The notes under the pieces: generated by a model | Seen by the model: only the letters and a program-made list of their open reading frames with translations | The model's database searches: none | What the model was told of the DNA's origin: nothing | Shown: positions 51,587 through 60,939 of the stretch, in pieces | How the letters are laid out: every line of letters starts with the position of its first letter | Numbering within the stretch: the stretch's first letter is position 1 | Assembly: GCA_017619535.1 (NCBI GenBank) | Contig: JAFZSD010000049.1 | Location: forward strand, 1-60,939 | From: Oscillospiraceae bacterium | GTDB lineage: Bacteria > Bacillota > Clostridia > Oscillospirales > Oscillospiraceae | Length of the DNA stretch: 60,939 bases | Direction of reading: 5' to 3' | Translations under genes and position numbers: made by a program

Positions 51587-51615
51587 TTTGCTACCCGTCC
51601 GCTTTGTGATATAAT
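51587..51615 (+). promoter_or_regulatory. Promoter of the radical SAM pair
   Basis: TTTGCT at 51587-51592 (or TTGCTA one base on) and TATAAT at 51610-51615, spacer 17 or 16 nt. The predicted start is near 51622. Confidence 0.6.
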
Positions 51616-51665: not shown

Positions 51666-53057
51666 ATGAAATCATCGAGAAGGGAACTAGCCTACGCCGA
51701 ACAGAACTTCAACGAGGTCCATCATACGACCCTCAATCCCGAAGGACCCGGCGTGGTGCGGATACATCTGGTGCCGCCCCTCGTCACGGACGGGGAGATA
51801 GGCGCCAGCGTGGCGATCCTGAACGGACAGGACGTCATACCGGTCAACACTTCGTGGAGCATCCTGCTCACGGAGTTCATACGCTCGGTGAACGAATACG
51901 CCGGGAGGCCGATCACCGACGAGGAGGCCGCAGACATAGTCGAGTCCGCGTGCTCGAGCGTAAAGAAGGTATATCCCTTCACCAGGAAGAAACGCCTGAG
52001 AAGGGACATCTACACGATCATGGAGACGTTCCGCCAGGTGGCTGCGGGAGAGACGCCGGACGTCCCGATCGGATATCTGAAGCTCCGGGATTACGCGCCC
52101 AAGATGCGCGCGCCCCACAGGATGGACCTGCTGGTCAGCGCCATGACGTCGGGCGGATGCTGGAACTGCAACCAGAGATGCATACACTGCTACGCCGCGG
52201 GACAGGAGCAGGCGGAGGAGCGGGAGCTCTCCACGGAGGAGTGGAAGGTGATAATCGACAGGTGCCGCGAGGCCGGGATCCCCCAGGTCACTTTCACGGG
52301 CGGCGAGCCCACGATGCGGAGCGATCTGTTCGAGCTCATCGACCACGCCAAATGGTTCATCACCCGCCTCAATACGAACGGCGTGCTCCTTACGCCGGAA
52401 TACTGCAGGAAGCTGCGGGAGGCATCCCTCGACAGCGCCCAGATAACCTTCTATTCGGCGGACGAGGAGATACACAACACCCTCGTCGGGGCGCCCCGGT
52501 TCAGAGACACCGTCGCCGGCATAGAGAACGCCATCGCGGCCGGCATAAACATAAGCGTCAACACGCCTCTCTGCACACTCAACAGAGACTATGTGAAGAC
52601 CCTCGAATTCCTCAAGGGGAAGGGCGTCATCTACGTTACGTGCTCCGGCCTCATAACCACAGGCAACGCGGCCACCGAGCAGTCCCAGAACCTGCAGCTG
52701 ACCCACGACGAGATACGCGACGTCCTGCGGGACGCGGTGGAGTACTGCTTCGCAAACGGCATGGAGATAAGCTTCACGTCGCCCGGCTGGGTCAGCGACG
52801 AGTACTGTCAGGAGCTGGGCATAGTCACTCCCAACTGCGGCGCGTGCCTCAGCAACATGGCCGTAACGCCGGGAGGAAACGTCGTGCCCTGCCAGAGCTG
52901 GCTGTCGGACGGAGTCCTGGGCAGCATGCTCACAGACGACTGGAAGGATATATGGAACGGGCAGCGCTGCCGGGAGATACGCGAAGTCTCCTCGCAGATG
53001 CGCTGCGAGTGTCCGCTGCGGATCGCCCGCACGGGCGCGGCGAACAGCGCGGACTGA
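51666..53057 (+). CDS. Radical SAM/SPASM-type maturase with RRE-like N-terminus
   Basis: 463 residues. Residues about 45-105 (SVAILNGQDVIPVNTSWSILLTEFI, then ITDEEAADIVES) resemble the PqqD-like RiPP recognition element. The radical SAM barrel begins at 160, with the cluster cysteines 168, 172 and 175 in CNQRCIHCY (Cys165 just before), then FTGGEPTMRSDLFELIDHAKW and NTNGVLLTPEYCRKL. The C-terminal part (390-455) has NCGACLSNMAVTPGGNVVPCQSW and RCREI...MRCECPLR, a SPASM-like auxiliary-cluster domain. Such enzymes form carbon or thioether crosslinks in peptides. It is followed after 19 bases by a gene with a Cys-Ala tail, which I take as its substrate. Confidence 0.9.
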   Translation: MKSSRRELAYAEQNFNEVHHTTLNPEGPGVVRIHLVPPLVTDGEIGASVAILNGQDVIPVNTSWSILLTEFIRSVNEYAGRPITDEEAADIVESACSSVKKVYPFTRKKRLRRDIYTIMETFRQVAAGETPDVPIGYLKLRDYAPKMRAPHRMDLLVSAMTSGGCWNCNQRCIHCYAAGQEQAEERELSTEEWKVIIDRCREAGIPQVTFTGGEPTMRSDLFELIDHAKWFITRLNTNGVLLTPEYCRKLREASLDSAQITFYSADEEIHNTLVGAPRFRDTVAGIENAIAAGINISVNTPLCTLNRDYVKTLEFLKGKGVIYVTCSGLITTGNAATEQSQNLQLTHDEIRDVLRDAVEYCFANGMEISFTSPGWVSDEYCQELGIVTPNCGACLSNMAVTPGGNVVPCQSWLSDGVLGSMLTDDWKDIWNGQRCREIREVSSQMRCECPLRIARTGAANSAD

Positions 53058-53076
53058 CCCGGGGGAGGTGGGTATG

Positions 53077-54351
53077 ATGAAAAAACGATTTATAATACTT
53101 GCTCTTTCCATCGCTCTGCTTATAGCCTTCGCCCCTGCTCTGTCTGTGGACGCCCAGGCGAAGGATCTGGATGAGATACTGAACTATGAGATAACCGCCG
53201 AGGTGAACGAGGACGCCACGGTCACGCTGGTGTATCACATAGACTGGCTGGTGCTGGATTCCACATCCGAAGGACCTCTGGCATGGGTGCAGATCGGCAT
53301 ACCAAACAGCCACTGCCTGTCGTGCCGCGGCCTCAGCAGCGTAGCTGATTTCGTGTCGGCCCCCTATAACGGGAGCTATGCCAGGATCGATCTGGACCGG
53401 GAGTACGAAGCCGGCGAGACGGCGGTCATAGAGTTCGAGATCGTTCAGGACTATATGTACCAGGTGGACATGCTGGCGGAGGGCGAGACGTCCTATGTCT
53501 TCACTCCGGGCTGGTTCGATGATATAGACGTCGACAACTTCACCCTGAGATGGAAGGCCGACAAGGTCTCGAGCCAGACGCCCGAGTGCATCGTCGAGGA
53601 CAGCTACCTCACGTGGAACAGGCCTCTCGGCAGAGGCGAGCGCTTCACGGTCACCCTGACTTATCCCAACGACGCCTACGCATTCGATCTCAGCAAGTCC
53701 ATAGACCTCGGCGGCGACGATTACGATTATGATTATGACTATGACTATGACGATTACGGCGGCTACGGCAACGACATCGGCTCAGCTGTAGGCGGCGTGT
53801 TCGGATTCGTATTCATCTTTATAATTATCACAACATTACTCACGGGTTCCAAGCTCTTCAGCAGGAGCGCGAACTTCTCAGGGGAATCCGGAAAGAAGAT
53901 CACCCGCACCAAAGTCGAATACTATCCGGTATGCCAGGGCTGCGGCAGCCCGCGTCCCGACGGCGCGAACAACTGCTCCTACTGCGGACGCAGCTTCATA
54001 AAGAGCGAGGAGATCATCGAGGAGAAGGACATCCCGAAGGAGGAAAAAGAGCTCCGCAGACAGACCAGCGACGGCCTGTACAGGTATTCCACCGTTCCGA
54101 ATACATTCATGCGCGTCCATGTGGTGAACGTGCCCGTGGTGAGGTCCTCCGGGTCCGCGTTCCGCGGAGGCTCGTCTTCCCGCGGCGGCGGGCACTCGTC
54201 CTGCGCCCACAGTTCGTGCGCCTGCGCCTGTGCGTGCGCCTGCGCCTGCGCCGGAGGCGGCAGAGCCGGATGCACAGCCAAGGATTTCTACAACACCGGC
54301 CTGAAGCTGAAGCAGCTCGAGAAGAAGTGTATCAGGCACGGCCGCGGATAA
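53077..54351 (+). CDS. Membrane protein with cytoplasmic (Cys-Ala)6 tail, probable substrate of the radical SAM enzyme
   Basis: 424 residues. The start at 53077 is eight bases behind GGGGGAGG (an ATG at 53074 is also possible). Signal peptide 1-27, extracellular beta-rich domain about 30-210 resembling DUF2207-like modules, an Asp/Tyr run DYDYDYDYDYDDYGG (about 215-229), one membrane span (234-256), and a cytoplasmic zinc ribbon (Cys286, 289, 300, 303). The tail ends in Gly/Ser-rich sequence, then Cys376, AHSS, CACACACACACA (Cys381-391), GGGRAG, Cys399 and TAKDFY. Alternating Cys-Ala in the compartment where the maturase works, right next to its gene, suggests thioether or similar modification. 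Substrate status and crosslink are inference. Confidence 0.85.
   Translation: MKKRFIILALSIALLIAFAPALSVDAQAKDLDEILNYEITAEVNEDATVTLVYHIDWLVLDSTSEGPLAWVQIGIPNSHCLSCRGLSSVADFVSAPYNGSYARIDLDREYEAGETAVIEFEIVQDYMYQVDMLAEGETSYVFTPGWFDDIDVDNFTLRWKADKVSSQTPECIVEDSYLTWNRPLGRGERFTVTLTYPNDAYAFDLSKSIDLGGDDYDYDYDYDYDDYGGYGNDIGSAVGGVFGFVFIFIIITTLLTGSKLFSRSANFSGESGKKITRTKVEYYPVCQGCGSPRPDGANNCSYCGRSFIKSEEIIEEKDIPKEEKELRRQTSDGLYRYSTVPNTFMRVHVVNVPVVRSSGSAFRGGSSSRGGGHSSCAHSSCACACACACACAGGGRAGCTAKDFYNTGLKLKQLEKKCIRHGRG
54202..54273 (+). repeat. Cys-Ala codon repeat
   Basis: Six TGC/TGT-GCC/GCG pairs in tandem encode CACACACACACA, preceded by TGC GCC CAC AGT TCG and followed by the GGGRAGC codons. The third pair uses different codons, arguing that the peptide repeat is selected rather than recent DNA slippage. 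Confidence 0.9.
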
Positions 54352-54375: not shown

Positions 54376-54405
54376 AGCGGGGAGCAGTCTGAACTGCTCC
54401 CCGCT
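54376..54405 (+). terminator. Hairpin after the Cys-Ala protein
   Basis: AGCGGGGAGCAG pairs with CTGCTCCCCGCT, no U-tract. The true stop may be the next hairpin. Confidence 0.7.
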
Positions 54406-54600: not shown

Positions 54601-56160
54601 ATGCCGTGTCCGTATTTCGAGATTAAGAAGTTAACAAGAAAACTGAAGTCGCATGTCGTAGACCGCGCCGCATATCTGGCAGGCGAACGTCTTCGTGAAG
54701 AGCTTACCAATGAAACGAAAAACCACACCGACAAGGATGATGTCATCTGCTCCGAAATCCTGCTGCCGGATAACGCGCCCCGGGAATATGCCGACCGCGG
54801 TACTCTCTGGAACGCCGTCGACGCGGTCGAGAGCAGAAAGAACGCGAAGATCGCGAGGGAAGTGATTATGGCCGTGCCAAAAGAACTGACGATGGAAGAT
54901 AACATAAAGATGGTAAGGGAGTACTGCATGGAGCAGTTCGTATCACGGGGGATGATCGCGGATATTTCCTTTCACGATCCCAAACACGATTATCATAATC
55001 CGCACGCGCACGTCCTGCTGACGGTGAGAGCGCTGGACGAGAACGGCCAATGGATGCTGAAGCGCCATCTCGAGTACGAGCGTGATGAAGAGGGCAATAA
55101 AATAAGGACCGATGACGGGAAGTGGAAAGTCAGGATCATTCGTCTGGACTGGGATGAACGTGACCTTTTCGAGAAACTGAGACAGGCCTGGGAAGACATC
55201 CAGAACGCGTTTCTGGAAGCGGCGGGCCGCCCCGAACGCGTCAGCATGAAGTCGTATAAGGAACAGGGGATCGACAGAATACCGCAGATCCATATGACCC
55301 CTGCCGTGGTGGCCATGGAGAGAAAGGGTATCAGGACCAGGATCGGGCAGCGGAACGAATTGATAAAGAAACTGAATGCGCAGAAAGAAGCTGAAGAGCG
55401 GGCCGCGGCCGGCAAAGGAGAACCGGCGAAAGAAACGGCGCTCATCGAACGTCTTTTACAGCGATTCAGTGAGCGGCAGAAGGAAACGGGAAGCAGTGTT
55501 TTCCTCTTTCGTCGGGAAGGGGTCAGCGACTCTCAGCGGTTCGAAGAGATCATGGACTATATGAGAGCCAACGGGATCTGCTCATTGGAAGACATCGACA
55601 GCAGGCATACAAGGGCTGATTCCGAGCGGAGGCGGGCCAGAGAACAGGTGACGGCTGTGAAAAACCGTTTGAAAACAGTAAACAGACTGTTGGAAGCGGG
55701 CAGAAGGAGAGCAAAGTCCAAACCTGTCCATGATGAGTATCTGAGAATCCGCAGCAAAAAACGAAGAGAGAAGTTTGCAGAGGAACACCGGTCTGAGCTG
55801 GACGATTGGGAGCAGGCGGACAGTTTCATAAAAAAGACGCTTCAGCACCGGCCGTTCGACGCCAAAGCGCTGCGGTCCGAACTTGCCTCGCTGAACGAGC
55901 GTCTCGACAAGCTGAACAAGGCGTCGAACAATGCTGACAAGGAGTTCCGGATACTGCGGGATATGCGTGACCTGGTGCAGGTCCTCATGCCTGAAGGCGA
56001 GCACGAGATCAGGAGATTCATATCAGGCGTGAAGGGCTGGCATGTGACTCTCGAAGAGTGGGTTGCGGTAGCAATGCCGGTATTACCGGAAGTGCCTGAC
56101 GGCGTTGAGATACAGCAGTTCGTCAAACCGCAAAGAACAGAGACAGACATGGAACTTTAA
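54601..56160 (+). CDS. MobA/MobL-family relaxase
   Basis: 519 residues. N-terminal relaxase domain: VVDRAAYLAGERLREE, then EILLPDNAPREYADRGTLWNAVDAVESRKNAKIAREV, and the metal-binding HNPHAHVLLTVRAL (HxH). It nicks and holds DNA for conjugative transfer. From about 270 the chain is a long coiled helix rich in Arg/Lys/Glu, with a final folded segment near 470-505. No partner mob genes, replication gene or integrase are nearby, and codon use is slightly AT-richer. Likely a mobilisable element remnant or a minimal IME core. Ribosome site aaggtgat. Confidence 0.92.
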   Translation: MPCPYFEIKKLTRKLKSHVVDRAAYLAGERLREELTNETKNHTDKDDVICSEILLPDNAPREYADRGTLWNAVDAVESRKNAKIAREVIMAVPKELTMEDNIKMVREYCMEQFVSRGMIADISFHDPKHDYHNPHAHVLLTVRALDENGQWMLKRHLEYERDEEGNKIRTDDGKWKVRIIRLDWDERDLFEKLRQAWEDIQNAFLEAAGRPERVSMKSYKEQGIDRIPQIHMTPAVVAMERKGIRTRIGQRNELIKKLNAQKEAEERAAAGKGEPAKETALIERLLQRFSERQKETGSSVFLFRREGVSDSQRFEEIMDYMRANGICSLEDIDSRHTRADSERRRAREQVTAVKNRLKTVNRLLEAGRRRAKSKPVHDEYLRIRSKKRREKFAEEHRSELDDWEQADSFIKKTLQHRPFDAKALRSELASLNERLDKLNKASNNADKEFRILRDMRDLVQVLMPEGEHEIRRFISGVKGWHVTLEEWVAVAMPVLPEVPDGVEIQQFVKPQRTETDMEL

Positions 56161-56722: not shown

Positions 56723-57019
56723 TCATTCGATGGTGAGGATGTCGGAGAAACCCGTGACCTCGAAGATCTCCATGATCTGATCTTTCACGTTCGTAAGTTT
56801 CATTTTACCCTGTTTGTTCATGATCTTCTGCGCTGAGAGCAGGACTCTCAGCCCGGCGGAGGAAATGTACTCCAGTCCGGCAAAATCAAGATTGAGCTCG
56901 GTTACCCCGTCAAGGGAAGCGCGAAGGGCGGCGTCCAGTTCGGGAGCCGTGGTCGTATCCAGCCGGCCTTCCAGCGCAAGATTCAGTTCGTTTCCGTTTT
57001 TGTTCTGATTGATTTTCAC
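56723..57019 (-). CDS. STAS-domain anti-sigma factor antagonist
   Basis: 98 residues, GTG start at 57019 eight bases behind gggagg. Single STAS fold: LALEGRLDTTTAPELDAAL, LNLDFAGLEYISSAGLRVLLSA with the phosphorylatable Ser53 or Ser54. In partner switching, an anti-sigma kinase phosphorylates this serine and a PP2C phosphatase reverses it. A SpoIIE-type phosphatase gene lies 1.8 kb upstream on the same strand, separated by the GH3 gene, so the three probably form one unit. Confidence 0.93.
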   Translation of the reverse strand: MKINQNKNGNELNLALEGRLDTTTAPELDAALRASLDGVTELNLDFAGLEYISSAGLRVLLSAQKIMNKQGKMKLTNVKDQIMEIFEVTGFSDILTIE

Positions 57020-57060
57020 AGCATTTGCCTCCCAGAAGTCAGTGTTTCACTTTATACATG

Positions 57061-58800
57061 TCAATCTGTCTGTACTTTTTCGGAGAGCAGTTCCCGACCG
57101 GAACCTTCTTCGAGCATGCCGAAGAAGAACTTCTCCTTATTTGGTGCGTCGATGATCCTTACAGGCTTCACCTGGTTGGGCGAAGCGCCTTTGTATATCT
57201 TGAATTCTCTCCAGAGAGCGTGGGTCTCCTGCTGCTGAAGCAGCACCATTGGATGGCCGATGCTCCTGTCGTCGCGGCAGACGGAGTATTCGACGTTCGC
57301 GTGGCGGAGCTTTTCCTCGAACACCCGGGCGTACTCGCCGAGCCTGTCCACGGGCAGGGGCTGGTCGGGTTCGACAAGCAGCACGTATCTCGCGGGGTCG
57401 ACGTCGTAATCGATATACAGGCAGTAGTCGTCGATCTGACATCCGATGGCCTTCGAGAACTCTGTGACCGCGTGGCTCAGATGTTCCTCGGTCGTCTTCT
57501 CGGCTGCCAGGTTGACCATCTGGCTGATGCGGTAGGCGAAGGTTATCTGGGGCGTAGTATTATGGTAGCCCAGAACGCGGACGACGTCTTTAATACGGTA
57601 GCGGTAGAAGCCGGAGAGGTTCGTGATGATGATCTCGTATTCCTTTCCGACTTCCAGTTTGTCCAGCGTCAGGGGGTGGGCCTCGTCTCCCGAGCCGTCG
57701 GTCGGAAGGAATTCGAAGAAACAGCTGTCGGTCAGAAGATCGTATTTCGGATCGTTCATCGCGCTGGCGGAGGCGAAGATGCCCTCGGACGCGGCGTAGA
57801 CGGAATAATCGATCGGGATGTCGCCGATGAACTGCTTTACCTTCTCGGTATAGACGGCGAAACCGCCGGTGCCGATCGCGCAGACATAGGACAGTTTCGG
57901 CCAGAGCCGCGGGACGATGGGAGTGTCGAAGCCATCCTCGAAGACTTTGCGGAGCTCGGCTGCGCGCTCCGGCCTCTTTTTCAGATAGGGGAGGATCGGC
58001 TTGAGATATTCGTCGCCTTTTACCATATCCGGATTCACGGTGCCGTTCTCTATGTCGTCTACGATCATCTCCCAGTTGTTCTTCATGAAGTTCATCATGT
58101 CCGAGATGTTCGTCATGAAGGAGGAGACCATGTAGCTCATGTCCCGGTCCTCGAGAGCAAAGCGGACGCGCATGTACTGCATGTTCATTCCGCCGGTCGG
58201 GAAGATCACGGGGATGGGAGAGGTCAGGAAATACGGCATGACGTTCTTGAACTTCTTTATCGCGGAACCGGAAACGGAGCCTTTCGGCGTGCCGTCCTCC
58301 ATCGTTCCGGATTCCACCTCCATGGCGTTGAGGCCGCGGCCCACCGGGATGGATCTGTGATACTTCTCTTTATAGTATCTGTCCGCCAGCGCGAACATAC
58401 GGATTCCGGAGTAGTCCTGATATACCTTCATGGCGCGGTCCGTCAGCGGGATGCGTTTCTGCACGCCGATGCTTCCGGAGGTCTCCGCGTACTGTATGAC
58501 CGGGTAGGCTGTGATCAGGTCCTTCTCGCCGTTTTTCACCATGCGGTCGATGTAGGGCGCATAGTCGTCGAACGTCGTGAAGGGAACCTTCTCCTGGAAT
58601 TCCCGGACGGAATGGATGTCCGCAAAGCCGTATTTCTTTCCGTATTCAGTATTGCTGTTGTCGCGCAGGAGCTCCATCAGCAGCTTTTCGTTCGACGCCA
58701 TGGCGTCCCTGCTGTGCTCGTCGATCCTGCGTAGCGCCGAATTGCCCTTCATGACCATGCCTCTCAGCATGGCCCACGTGATGATGCCGCTCGCTTTCAT
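57061..58800 (-). CDS. GH3-family acyl-adenylating enzyme
   Basis: 579 residues. Family marks: AETSGSIGVQKRIPLT (adenylate-binding P-loop-like motif), YAASEGIFA (motif 2) and LSGFYRYRIKDVV (motif 3), which together define GH3/acyl-acid-amido synthetases of the ANL superfamily. Plant members conjugate hormone acids to amino acids; bacterial members have mostly unknown substrates. VYKD-like C-terminal portions are present. Start behind gggggacc. Between the STAS and phosphatase genes. Confidence 0.9.
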   Translation of the reverse strand: MKASGIITWAMLRGMVMKGNSALRRIDEHSRDAMASNEKLLMELLRDNSNTEYGKKYGFADIHSVREFQEKVPFTTFDDYAPYIDRMVKNGEKDLITAYPVIQYAETSGSIGVQKRIPLTDRAMKVYQDYSGIRMFALADRYYKEKYHRSIPVGRGLNAMEVESGTMEDGTPKGSVSGSAIKKFKNVMPYFLTSPIPVIFPTGGMNMQYMRVRFALEDRDMSYMVSSFMTNISDMMNFMKNNWEMIVDDIENGTVNPDMVKGDEYLKPILPYLKKRPERAAELRKVFEDGFDTPIVPRLWPKLSYVCAIGTGGFAVYTEKVKQFIGDIPIDYSVYAASEGIFASASAMNDPKYDLLTDSCFFEFLPTDGSGDEAHPLTLDKLEVGKEYEIIITNLSGFYRYRIKDVVRVLGYHNTTPQITFAYRISQMVNLAAEKTTEEHLSHAVTEFSKAIGCQIDDYCLYIDYDVDPARYVLLVEPDQPLPVDRLGEYARVFEEKLRHANVEYSVCRDDRSIGHPMVLLQQQETHALWREFKIYKGASPNQVKPVRIIDAPNKEKFFFGMLEEGSGRELLSEKVQTD

Positions 58801-58834
58801 AAAGGTCCCCCATTATTATTTATGTACGGCGTTC

Positions 58835-60939
58835 TCAGCCGTGATACTCCAGACAGAGCATGGTCAGATCGTCGAACTGCTCCGCGTCTTTGACGAAGGC
58901 GTCGACCGCCGCGCGGACGTTCTTGAGGATCTGCTCCGGAGCAGCCTCAGGATCGGTGTTCAGCGCTGCGACCATACGGTCGGCGCCGAACATGTTGTTG
59001 TCCGCGTCCGTCGCTTCCGGAACGCCGTCAGTGTAGAGGAAGAGCTTGGAGCCCGGCTCCATCTGCAGCTCGTACTCCCTGTATCTGACGCCTTCCATAC
59101 CGCCGATGACGAGTCCGTGCTTGTCTTTGACAAGTTCGAACCCGCCGCCCGGCTTTCTGAGCACGGGGTACTCGTGCCCGGCGTTCGCCGCCGTGAGTTT
59201 TCCGGTGGATATCTCGAGGATGCCGAGCCAGACCGTGACGAACATCTCGGCCTGGTTGTTCGAGCAGATGGCCTCGTTCGTTTTCGTAAGTATCTCCGCT
59301 GCGGACTGTCCCATGTTCCCGTAGCTCTGCAGGATGACCTTGGAGACCATCATGAACAGCGCCGCGGGCACGCCCTTTCCGCTGACGTCCGCCATCACCA
59401 GACAGAGGTGATCGTCGTCGACGAGGAAGAAATCGTAAAAGTCGCCGCCGACCTCCTTGGCGGGATCCATGGAGGCGTAGAGATCGAACTCTTTCCTGTC
59501 GGGGAAGGGCGGGAACAGATGCGGGAGCATGCTGCTCTGTATCTTGTTCGCCATGGTGAGTTCGTTTTCGATGCGCTCGCGCTCTTTCTCCTCACGGTGC
59601 TTTTCCTCCAGAGCGCGCATCTTACGGCGCACGTAGGAGCGGACCAGCAGGGCGATGATCAGGGCGGCGGCAAGCCCCGCGAGGATGTGCACCCACGCAA
59701 GTTCGTAGAACGCCTTTTCCTTGACGATGGGGACCGAGAGGGTCTTGCTCTCCTGGCCCAGAGCGTCTTTAAGTTCCATCACGAACCGGTAGGAGCCGCC
59801 GGGCAGGTTGGTATAGGACACGGGCCCCAGCTCGCTGCGGCTCACCGTCGCCGCCTCGCGGTCGAAACCATCCAGATAATAGGATACCTGCGGATCGGTG
59901 AGCGAGTAACTGTATACATGGCCGTGGATAGTGAGTTTACGGACGTTTGAGGGAATAGTGAATCCGCCCGTCTCGTCGGGATAGATCCGAACGTCGTCCG
60001 CGTCGACGTACGGGACTGACTGCCTTATATCGCCGACTTTCTCCGGATCCTCCTCGATATTGACCTTCGCCACGCCTGAGCTTCCCGCGATGTAGAGATC
60101 GCCGTCATCAGTCAGCGCGCTGTATGAGTTGCTGGTCGCGATGCACGGCAGGCCGTTGGCCATGCCGTAGTGCAGGGGGCTCATCCTGCCGTTTTCGATG
60201 AGTTCGTCGGCAGGAAGCACGTAGATGCCGTCGCCGCTGAGGATCCACATGTCGCCGCGGCTGTTCTCATACATGTCGAAGTTGTTGGAGAACGGGAAGT
60301 TGCTCACCGTGGTCACGCGGTAATCCGAGGTCATATAAGCGAGAGAATTGCTGGTCACGAGCCAGTAGAGATCCCGCGCCTCGTCGTATTTTATGCGCAT
60401 TATGATGCCGGAACTGAGCCCGTCGTTTTTCCCGACGCAGCGGACTCCGTCCTTGTTTATCACGTAGATGCCGCCGCCGTTGGAGCCCAGGACGATGTCG
60501 CCGTTCGGCGCCGATACCACCGAGAGGCTCTCCGGATTGGCTATGCCGTCGCCGGTGCCGTAGGCTGCCGTGACGCGGTCGCCCTCGATGACGTTGACGC
60601 CGCCGGTGCAGGCGATGAGCATCGCGCCGTCCGGCGTCTCGCAGGCGATGCGGACATGCTCGGACAAAAGGCCGTCGGCCGCGGTGAAGGCCGTTATCTC
60701 TCCGCGGTCATACCGCAGCAGGCCGTGGGCCTGCCAGGTGGAGATCCACAGCCGTCCCTGACTGTCGGAGACGATGGAGCGGATGCGGCATCCGTTAAGG
60801 AGTTCCAGCAGGTCGTCAGCGCCCAGATCCTCACCGGACGCGGTCTTTGCCGAGGTCAGGGGGACGGAGGACACTGGCCCGTTCCCGTCGAGGATCATAA
60901 GCCCCGTGTCAGTTGCGACATACAGCTCGCCGTTATACA
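58835..60939 (-). CDS. Propeller-sensor SpoIIE-type protein phosphatase (5' end cut by window edge)
   Basis: At least 700 residues in frame to the window edge. The N-terminal part is a series of propeller blades (RIRSIVSDSQGRLWISTWQAHGLLRYDRG, LLIACTGGVNVIEG, YNGELYVATDTGLM at the edge). A Y_Y_Y-type Ig-like module (VYSYSLTDPQVSYYLDGFD) follows, with one membrane span (VHILAGLAAALIIALLV) and a C-terminal SpoIIE/RsbU phosphatase (GGDFYDFFLVDDDHLCLVMADVSGKGVPAALFM, FVTVWLGILEISTG, LFLYTDGVPEA). Outside ligand sensing would control dephosphorylation of the nearby STAS protein. The start codon is beyond the edge. Confidence 0.9.
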   Translation of the reverse strand, partial: YNGELYVATDTGLMILDGNGPVSSVPLTSAKTASGEDLGADDLLELLNGCRIRSIVSDSQGRLWISTWQAHGLLRYDRGEITAFTAADGLLSEHVRIACETPDGAMLIACTGGVNVIEGDRVTAAYGTGDGIANPESLSVVSAPNGDIVLGSNGGGIYVINKDGVRCVGKNDGLSSGIIMRIKYDEARDLYWLVTSNSLAYMTSDYRVTTVSNFPFSNNFDMYENSRGDMWILSGDGIYVLPADELIENGRMSPLHYGMANGLPCIATSNSYSALTDDGDLYIAGSSGVAKVNIEEDPEKVGDIRQSVPYVDADDVRIYPDETGGFTIPSNVRKLTIHGHVYSYSLTDPQVSYYLDGFDREAATVSRSELGPVSYTNLPGGSYRFVMELKDALGQESKTLSVPIVKEKAFYELAWVHILAGLAAALIIALLVRSYVRRKMRALEEKHREEKERERIENELTMANKIQSSMLPHLFPPFPDRKEFDLYASMDPAKEVGGDFYDFFLVDDDHLCLVMADVSGKGVPAALFMMVSKVILQSYGNMGQSAAEILTKTNEAICSNNQAEMFVTVWLGILEISTGKLTAANAGHEYPVLRKPGGGFELVKDKHGLVIGGMEGVRYREYELQMEPGSKLFLYTDGVPEATDADNNMFGADRMVAALNTDPEAAPEQILKNVRAAVDAFVKDAEQFDDLTMLCLEYHG

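Follow-up and report, generated by a model that had tools for sequence, protein, structure and literature searches.

A radical SAM enzyme paired with a Cys-Ala-tailed membrane protein in gut Clostridia: a candidate two-gene maturation unit

Introduction

Radical SAM maturases have been studied almost solely as makers of small released peptides, and the SPASM enzymes among them carry out many reactions. A locus of an Oscillospiraceae bacterium (GenBank assembly GCA_017619535.1, contig JAFZSD010000049.1, of which the whole analysed stretch of 60,939 nucleotides is here termed the window) raises the question of what such an enzyme does when the adjoining gene encodes a membrane protein ending in six alternating Cys-Ala units. 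An initial annotation proposed that the enzyme acts on this membrane-anchored tail, which would make it a fixed, post-translationally modified surface device of distinct architecture. The question is addressed here by a comparison set of about 46 loci belonging to four enzyme groups (A–D), with the window in group A.

The gene pair and its surroundings

The two genes were found at the positions first assigned to them, as were the (Cys-Ala)6 repeat, its flanking cysteines and a zinc ribbon. The radical SAM/SPASM enzyme (463 aa; PF04055, 1.3e-24; PF13186, 1.4e-8) occupies 51666–53057 on the plus strand, which also carries all features of the pair given below. Next comes the gene for a type I membrane protein of 425 aa that bears the tail (53074–54351; 22 complete relatives aligned); its ATG lies at 53074 or perhaps at 53077, 16 or 19 nt past the enzyme stop. 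A promoter-like site with an extended TG (TTGCTA-16-TATAAT, 51588–51615, 10 of 12 consensus matches) lies 5' of the enzyme gene, a weak signal given that the region holds three such sites against 1.4 in shuffled sequence. Just 3' of the tail gene, a perfect 13-bp hairpin (54376–54405) has its T-run on the minus strand, and so resembles a terminator of transcription in that direction.

Directly 3' of the tail gene is a MobA/MobL (MobQ-type) relaxase (54601–56160). It is a settled neighbor in the near relative L009, with 81% identity at the DNA level, but is not conserved at the other loci. Side by side on the minus strand (56723–60898) are a STAS-domain protein (56723–57019), a GH3-family protein (57061–58800) and a protein with propeller, Y_Y_Y and SpoIIE-phosphatase domains (58835–60898), a putative, unusual cluster of the partner-switching type with a GH3 acyl-adenylating enzyme.

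The enzyme resembles sactisynthases

The CxxxCxxC motif and the PF04055 fold place the enzyme in the radical SAM superfamily. The motif reads CNQRCIHC (52167–52190), and its three cysteines, which coordinate the SAM-binding [4Fe-4S] cluster, do not vary among 23 relatives. Against the NCBIfam radical SAM equivalogs the protein scored far under every cut-off (best TIGR04055, 108 bits vs 500). A SPASM-like C-terminus had been noted, and indeed the SPASM Pfam score of the window's enzyme (35.3 bits) exceeds the cut-off of 21.5, but this domain (52836–53012) is a reduced one: Cys391, Cys394, Cys409 and Cys449 are invariant in the 23 relatives, while the CxxCxxxxxC part of the full seven-cysteine ligand set, present in groups B and C, is missing from group A, whose enzymes therefore probably hold fewer auxiliary clusters. 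Two further cysteines, Cys303 and Cys326, are conserved across group A in addition to the expected cluster ligands.

The closest solved relative is the sactisynthase SkfB, both by profile comparison (E 8.4e-17) and in the AF2 model (pLDDT 81.6), which it matches with Z 23.4 and rmsd 5.2 over 337 residues (range 31–446), followed by SuiB (Z 22.7, 347 residues, range 31–451). Both alignments reach into the N-terminal domain (about residues 31–130, 51756–52055) and are some 50–90 residues longer than those of enzymes such as anSME and viperin, which align only from about residue 145. In the model, this supports the RRE-like N-terminus originally proposed. By sequence, a Pfam search of the enzyme gave no PqqD family match, and there was a weak profile match to the N-terminus of group C. 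The second PDB match by sequence, an archaeal tetraether lipid synthase, could be taken to mean that the enzyme's target is a membrane lipid or some other component of the membrane, and that the tail protein brings the enzyme there. Since that match is confined to some 100 residues of the core that radical SAM proteins have in common, and similarity over the full length of the structure is to RiPP maturases, we regard this as very improbable. A PADLOC similarity to viperin is likewise generic to radical SAM proteins, and an assignment as a defence system was set aside.

The membrane carrier is predicted to present its tail to the cytoplasm

In the window and most of its relatives, the tail protein is predicted to have a signal peptide, a single span and a cytoplasmic C-terminus, as supported by hydropathy and the positive-inside rule, in agreement with the layout initially described. 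The signal peptide (53074–53157) has its hydropathy peak at residues 7–25, after MMKKR, and is followed by an outer domain of 180 residues (53164–53688), a β-sandwich modeled with pLDDT mostly above 85 whose fold is that of OST1/ribophorin I (Z 15.0 and rmsd 2.9 vs 6ezn_A, 169 residues aligned). The span (53779–53859; hydropathy peak 238–256) is preceded by 20 residues with no Lys or Arg and followed by 20 containing four. Thus, in most members the tail is predicted to lie on the same side of the membrane as the enzyme, and the term 'surface', as applied earlier to the device, suits the outer domain only. In Pfam and NCBIfam the protein matched nothing above the cut-offs; its resemblance to DUF2207 (PF09972; 12.2 bits vs a cut-off of 24.4, E 0.22) is one of similar layout only.

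Between span and tail lies a cytoplasmic zinc ribbon (CxxC...CxxC, residues 287–304, 53932–53985), present in most group A carriers. Six loci at the base of group A (L006, L028 and L035–L038) encode a shorter cytoplasmic part lacking it, so that the ribbon seems, on the sequences, to have been acquired later, within a single well-supported branch of 21, and its absence from these deep branches rules it out as a part of the core mechanism.

Conservation is concentrated in the tail

In the window the tail reads SSCAHSS(CA)6GGGRAGCTAKDFY, the repeat being accompanied by one cysteine five residues upstream and another eight residues downstream. The presumed modification site is the (Cys-Ala)6 stretch (54217–54252), whose last five units are invariant in 22 relatives. 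In the second half of the core (GGGRAGC, 54253–54273), GRAGC is likewise invariant and the first two glycines are replaced by serine in one relative. Of the TAKDFY that follows (54274–54291), K and F are invariant and D and Y at least 90% conserved; the motif is retained also in carriers without the zinc ribbon, and is a possible docking element. Across the 22-protein alignment, 15 of 17 core positions are invariant; the outer domain has only 20 such positions among its 180, and the span, the zinc ribbon and the linker have none. A wider set of 31 loci showed CACACACA..GRAGC..K.F unchanged, the only core differences being SS for GG and N for the D of KDF in one locus each; since these rows were gathered by a search demanding most of the core letters, the claim of invariance rests on the unfiltered 22-protein alignment.

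This constancy belongs to the protein. Synonymous codons for Cys, Ala, Gly and Arg are interchanged freely across the 31 loci, to saturation within the repeat, with TGC about as frequent as TGT, and a (CA)4 DNA pattern matched the window once, at the tail, against a mean of 0.00 in 100 shuffles. An invariant protein sequence with freely varying synonymous codons rules out chance or a DNA repeat as the origin of the tail. Formylglycine formation was also rejected, the tail having neither a CxPxR nor a CxAxR motif. In the AF2 model the tail is disordered (pLDDT about 30).

Enzyme and tail occur together

When a single genome of each species was scanned, 23 further loci emerged, which with the window and L006, from the same order, make up 25 first-round loci. 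Those from the scan come from bins labelled Clostridia, Lachnospiraceae, Oscillospiraceae, Coriobacteriota and, in one case, Spirochaetes. In all 25 the enzyme gene lies directly 5' of the tail protein gene, 22 of these being complete and three cut inside the carrier by the contig end with its N-terminal domain present; in most, the tail gene begins no more than 16 nt before or 20 nt after the enzyme stop. Throughout the comparison set of some 46 loci, the gene for a Cys-Ala-tailed protein adjoins that of the enzyme wherever the sequence suffices.

The initial annotation had called for a test of co-occurrence, which bore it out: the same genomes carry both partners. In the window's order the enzyme was found in 2 of 197 genomes and the tail in the same two, and in Lachnospirales in 7 of 295 and the same seven (Fisher p 3e-14, or slightly weaker when the centre genome is left out), while in Coriobacteriales the single enzyme-bearing genome among 95 is the centre genome itself; these order-level samples are small, and each includes a centre genome picked for having the pair. 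Across a phylum sample of 398 genomes, all 15 with an enzyme match of E <1e-50 have the partner adjoining. No real tail without an enzyme was found in the 197, 295 and 95 genomes sampled from the three orders; five further (CA)4 DNA matches in Coriobacteriales were out-of-frame or antisense, lacked the Gly-Cys end and were dismissed as tails. An all-against-all comparison of the flanks revealed no third conserved gene, and no protease, exporter or regulator. The distances between enzymes correlate with those between outer domains (Mantel r 0.73, p 1e-4), which fits inheritance of the pair as a unit.

Co-occurrence of this kind denotes a functional link, the direction of which it does not give. 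CxCxC stretches are good metal binders in known proteins, and the tail might accordingly be an unmodified metal-binding or redox segment, the enzyme working elsewhere and the membrane protein serving it by sensing, anchoring or supplying metal. The zinc ribbon in most group A carriers is in keeping with such a function, but the deep branches do without it, plain binding would allow variation of the CxC pattern and have no need for an invariant GRAGC and KxF, and the tail never appears without the enzyme in the samples. We therefore judge it quite unlikely that the tail stays unmodified.

The loci stem mostly from metagenome bins, and their cross-phylum members may in part reflect binning errors. 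Three enzymes from bins assigned to Atopobiaceae, Coriobacteriaceae and Spirochaetes (L018, L021 and L023, respectively) nest within the Clostridia branch of group A, a placement that reflects either lateral transfer or such errors. One pair resides on a record filed in GenBank as 'Bacteriophage sp.' (L097, MT837216.1, UNVERIFIED, from human faeces), beside a release factor 3-like gene and other bacterial genes, and appears to be a bacterial contig wrongly classed as phage. Carriage by phages or plasmids was discounted, there being no plasmid match and no close viral contig apart from this bacterial-looking record.

The tail recurs on a different carrier

More distant enzymes, found in the phylum sample, extend the association beyond group A. 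Group B comprises ten genomes (enzyme E 1e-84 to 1e-97) with a homologous carrier directly downstream, ending in GCACVSCACACVSCACACACAGG[R/G]GAGCxxKF, except that one tail is unreadable (masked N) and one is cut by the sequence end. One group B carrier, L084, shows a weak Pfam match to a YxzE-like putative bacteriocin (residues 241–318, E 1.5e-4, 23 bits vs a cut-off of 40), probably due to low complexity. Groups C and D, in four genomes (enzyme E 1e-52 to 1e-60), have the gene order reversed, with the carrier upstream of the enzyme. Their outer domain is remotely related to the others (profile comparison E 8e-7, probability 92%) and their cytoplasmic half is different, yet these carriers end in SSCACACACACASSGGCT or SCACACACACAGGGGCT.

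Other distant radical SAM matches (L068–L082) were examined as possible members and rejected, as no CxCxC protein adjoins them and they fall outside the tail-linked groups in the tree. The maximum-likelihood tree sets groups A, B and C apart from the other radical SAM matches of the sample, a separation that ignores two badly extracted paralogue rows (L002 and L003) and whose dividing branch is weak (77/97). With the same tail on a different carrier in groups C and D, and radical SAM matches elsewhere having no CxCxC neighbor, it is the tail, and not the remainder of the carrier, that tracks this enzyme lineage.

Proposed mechanism and the nature of the reaction

Obligate pairing, codon-saturated invariance, the carrier swap and the lack of any other conserved neighbor together make the tail very probably the enzyme's substrate, and the proposal that the enzyme acts on a membrane-anchored tail, in part supported as a whole, draws on the first three of these. 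A minimal two-gene maturation unit with a modified, membrane-retained tail is the best overall explanation, and on balance a probable one. The carrier would insert as a type I membrane protein with its outer domain outside and its tail in the cytoplasm, where the RRE-like N-terminal domain of the enzyme may dock on the tail region, allowing the radical SAM center and the SPASM-type auxiliary cluster to modify the Cys-Ala stretch. Most likely, hydrogen would be abstracted from neighboring small residues and the cysteine sulfurs joined to their carbons as thioethers, giving a rigid sulfur-rich segment at the inner membrane face that is neither cut off nor exported. The lack of a conserved protease or exporter fits such a fixed device, as first suggested, rather than a released peptide.

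Thioether crosslinking is the leading guess because the nearest characterized enzymes form thioethers, and we give it roughly even chances or slightly better. Weighing against the overall explanation are the many reactions of which SPASM enzymes are capable, the reduced auxiliary-cluster ligands of this group, an RRE discernible in the model but not by Pfam and, as regards crosslinking, a repeat in which Ala and Gly are the only conserved acceptor residue types. The main rival has the enzyme act on the tail without crosslinking it, by epimerizing alternate residues to D-amino acids or, e.g., by oxidizing cysteines. Radical SAM epimerases in proteusins turn alternate residues into D-amino acids, and Cys-Ala alternation is strict in all groups; moreover, Cys303 and Cys326 of group A could donate hydrogen, and part of the auxiliary-cluster ligands is lost in this group. 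However, of these two cysteines group B has only Cys326 and group C lacks both, the closest solved relative is a sactisynthase, and the step from alternation to epimerization is itself made by analogy with other systems. A reaction on the tail other than crosslinking is thus considered unlikely.

Relation to known systems and implications

With carriers of 303–546 aa and only two conserved genes, the short precursor, released product and nearby protease or exporter that mark a RiPP cluster are lacking, and the enzyme-tail unit is not such a cluster in the usual sense. SkfB and other sactisynthases combine RRE, radical SAM and SPASM domains, and the window's enzyme resembles them in domain order and fold, its RRE-like part being one of the model. 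The substrate of SkfB is a small released precursor, whereas here a large membrane protein carries the presumed substrate as its tail and neither a protease nor an exporter is encoded close by. Ranthipeptides such as SCIFF and freyrasin similarly have thioethers installed by radical SAM enzymes in ribosomal sequences rich in Cys (PMC8172795), but come from small free precursors with no membrane carrier. A closer precedent as to the fate of the product is QhpD, a SPASM enzyme that forms thioether crosslinks on the γ subunit of QHNDH, which remains a working part of the protein (PMC8172795). The subunit is small and soluble, and its links join Cys to Asp or Glu, in contrast to a membrane protein whose Cys-Ala repeat has no acidic acceptors.

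A precedent for the carrier is found in the TIGR04222 integral membrane proteins, whose low-complexity, Cys-rich C-terminal tails have been proposed as substrates of the adjoining MNIO enzymes (PMC12452194). There the modifying enzyme is of another class, the tails are Ser/Gly-rich and predicted periplasmic, and one third of TIGR04222 genomes lack the enzyme (PMC12452194), as opposed to the present pair, for which no enzyme-free tail was seen. The tail protein has no NCBIfam match to the TIGR04222 domain, its partner is a radical SAM enzyme and no third gene is conserved in the flanks. These two precedents soften the initial view of a distinct architecture. A literature search, the coverage of which leaves out most subscription papers, found no prior description of a radical SAM enzyme paired with such a tail, or with DUF2207.

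As to the cellular role, sulfur content alone prompts a low-confidence guess at a function related to metals or redox on the inner side of the membrane. Somewhat short of even odds, in our estimate, is the wider notion of a portable module, (Cys-Ala)n-small residues-Gly-Cys, carried by different membrane proteins and recognized by one radical SAM lineage, which would convert it to a crosslinked or D/L-alternating, sulfur-lined rod serving as a permanent cellular part. The Cys-Ala tail is in any case an unusually regular substrate candidate for studying how an enzyme progresses along a repeat. This simple two-gene unit is widespread in gut Clostridia and beyond, and what it probably yields is a part that stays fixed in a membrane protein, suggesting that modifications of the kind found in peptides may also build permanent components of the membrane.
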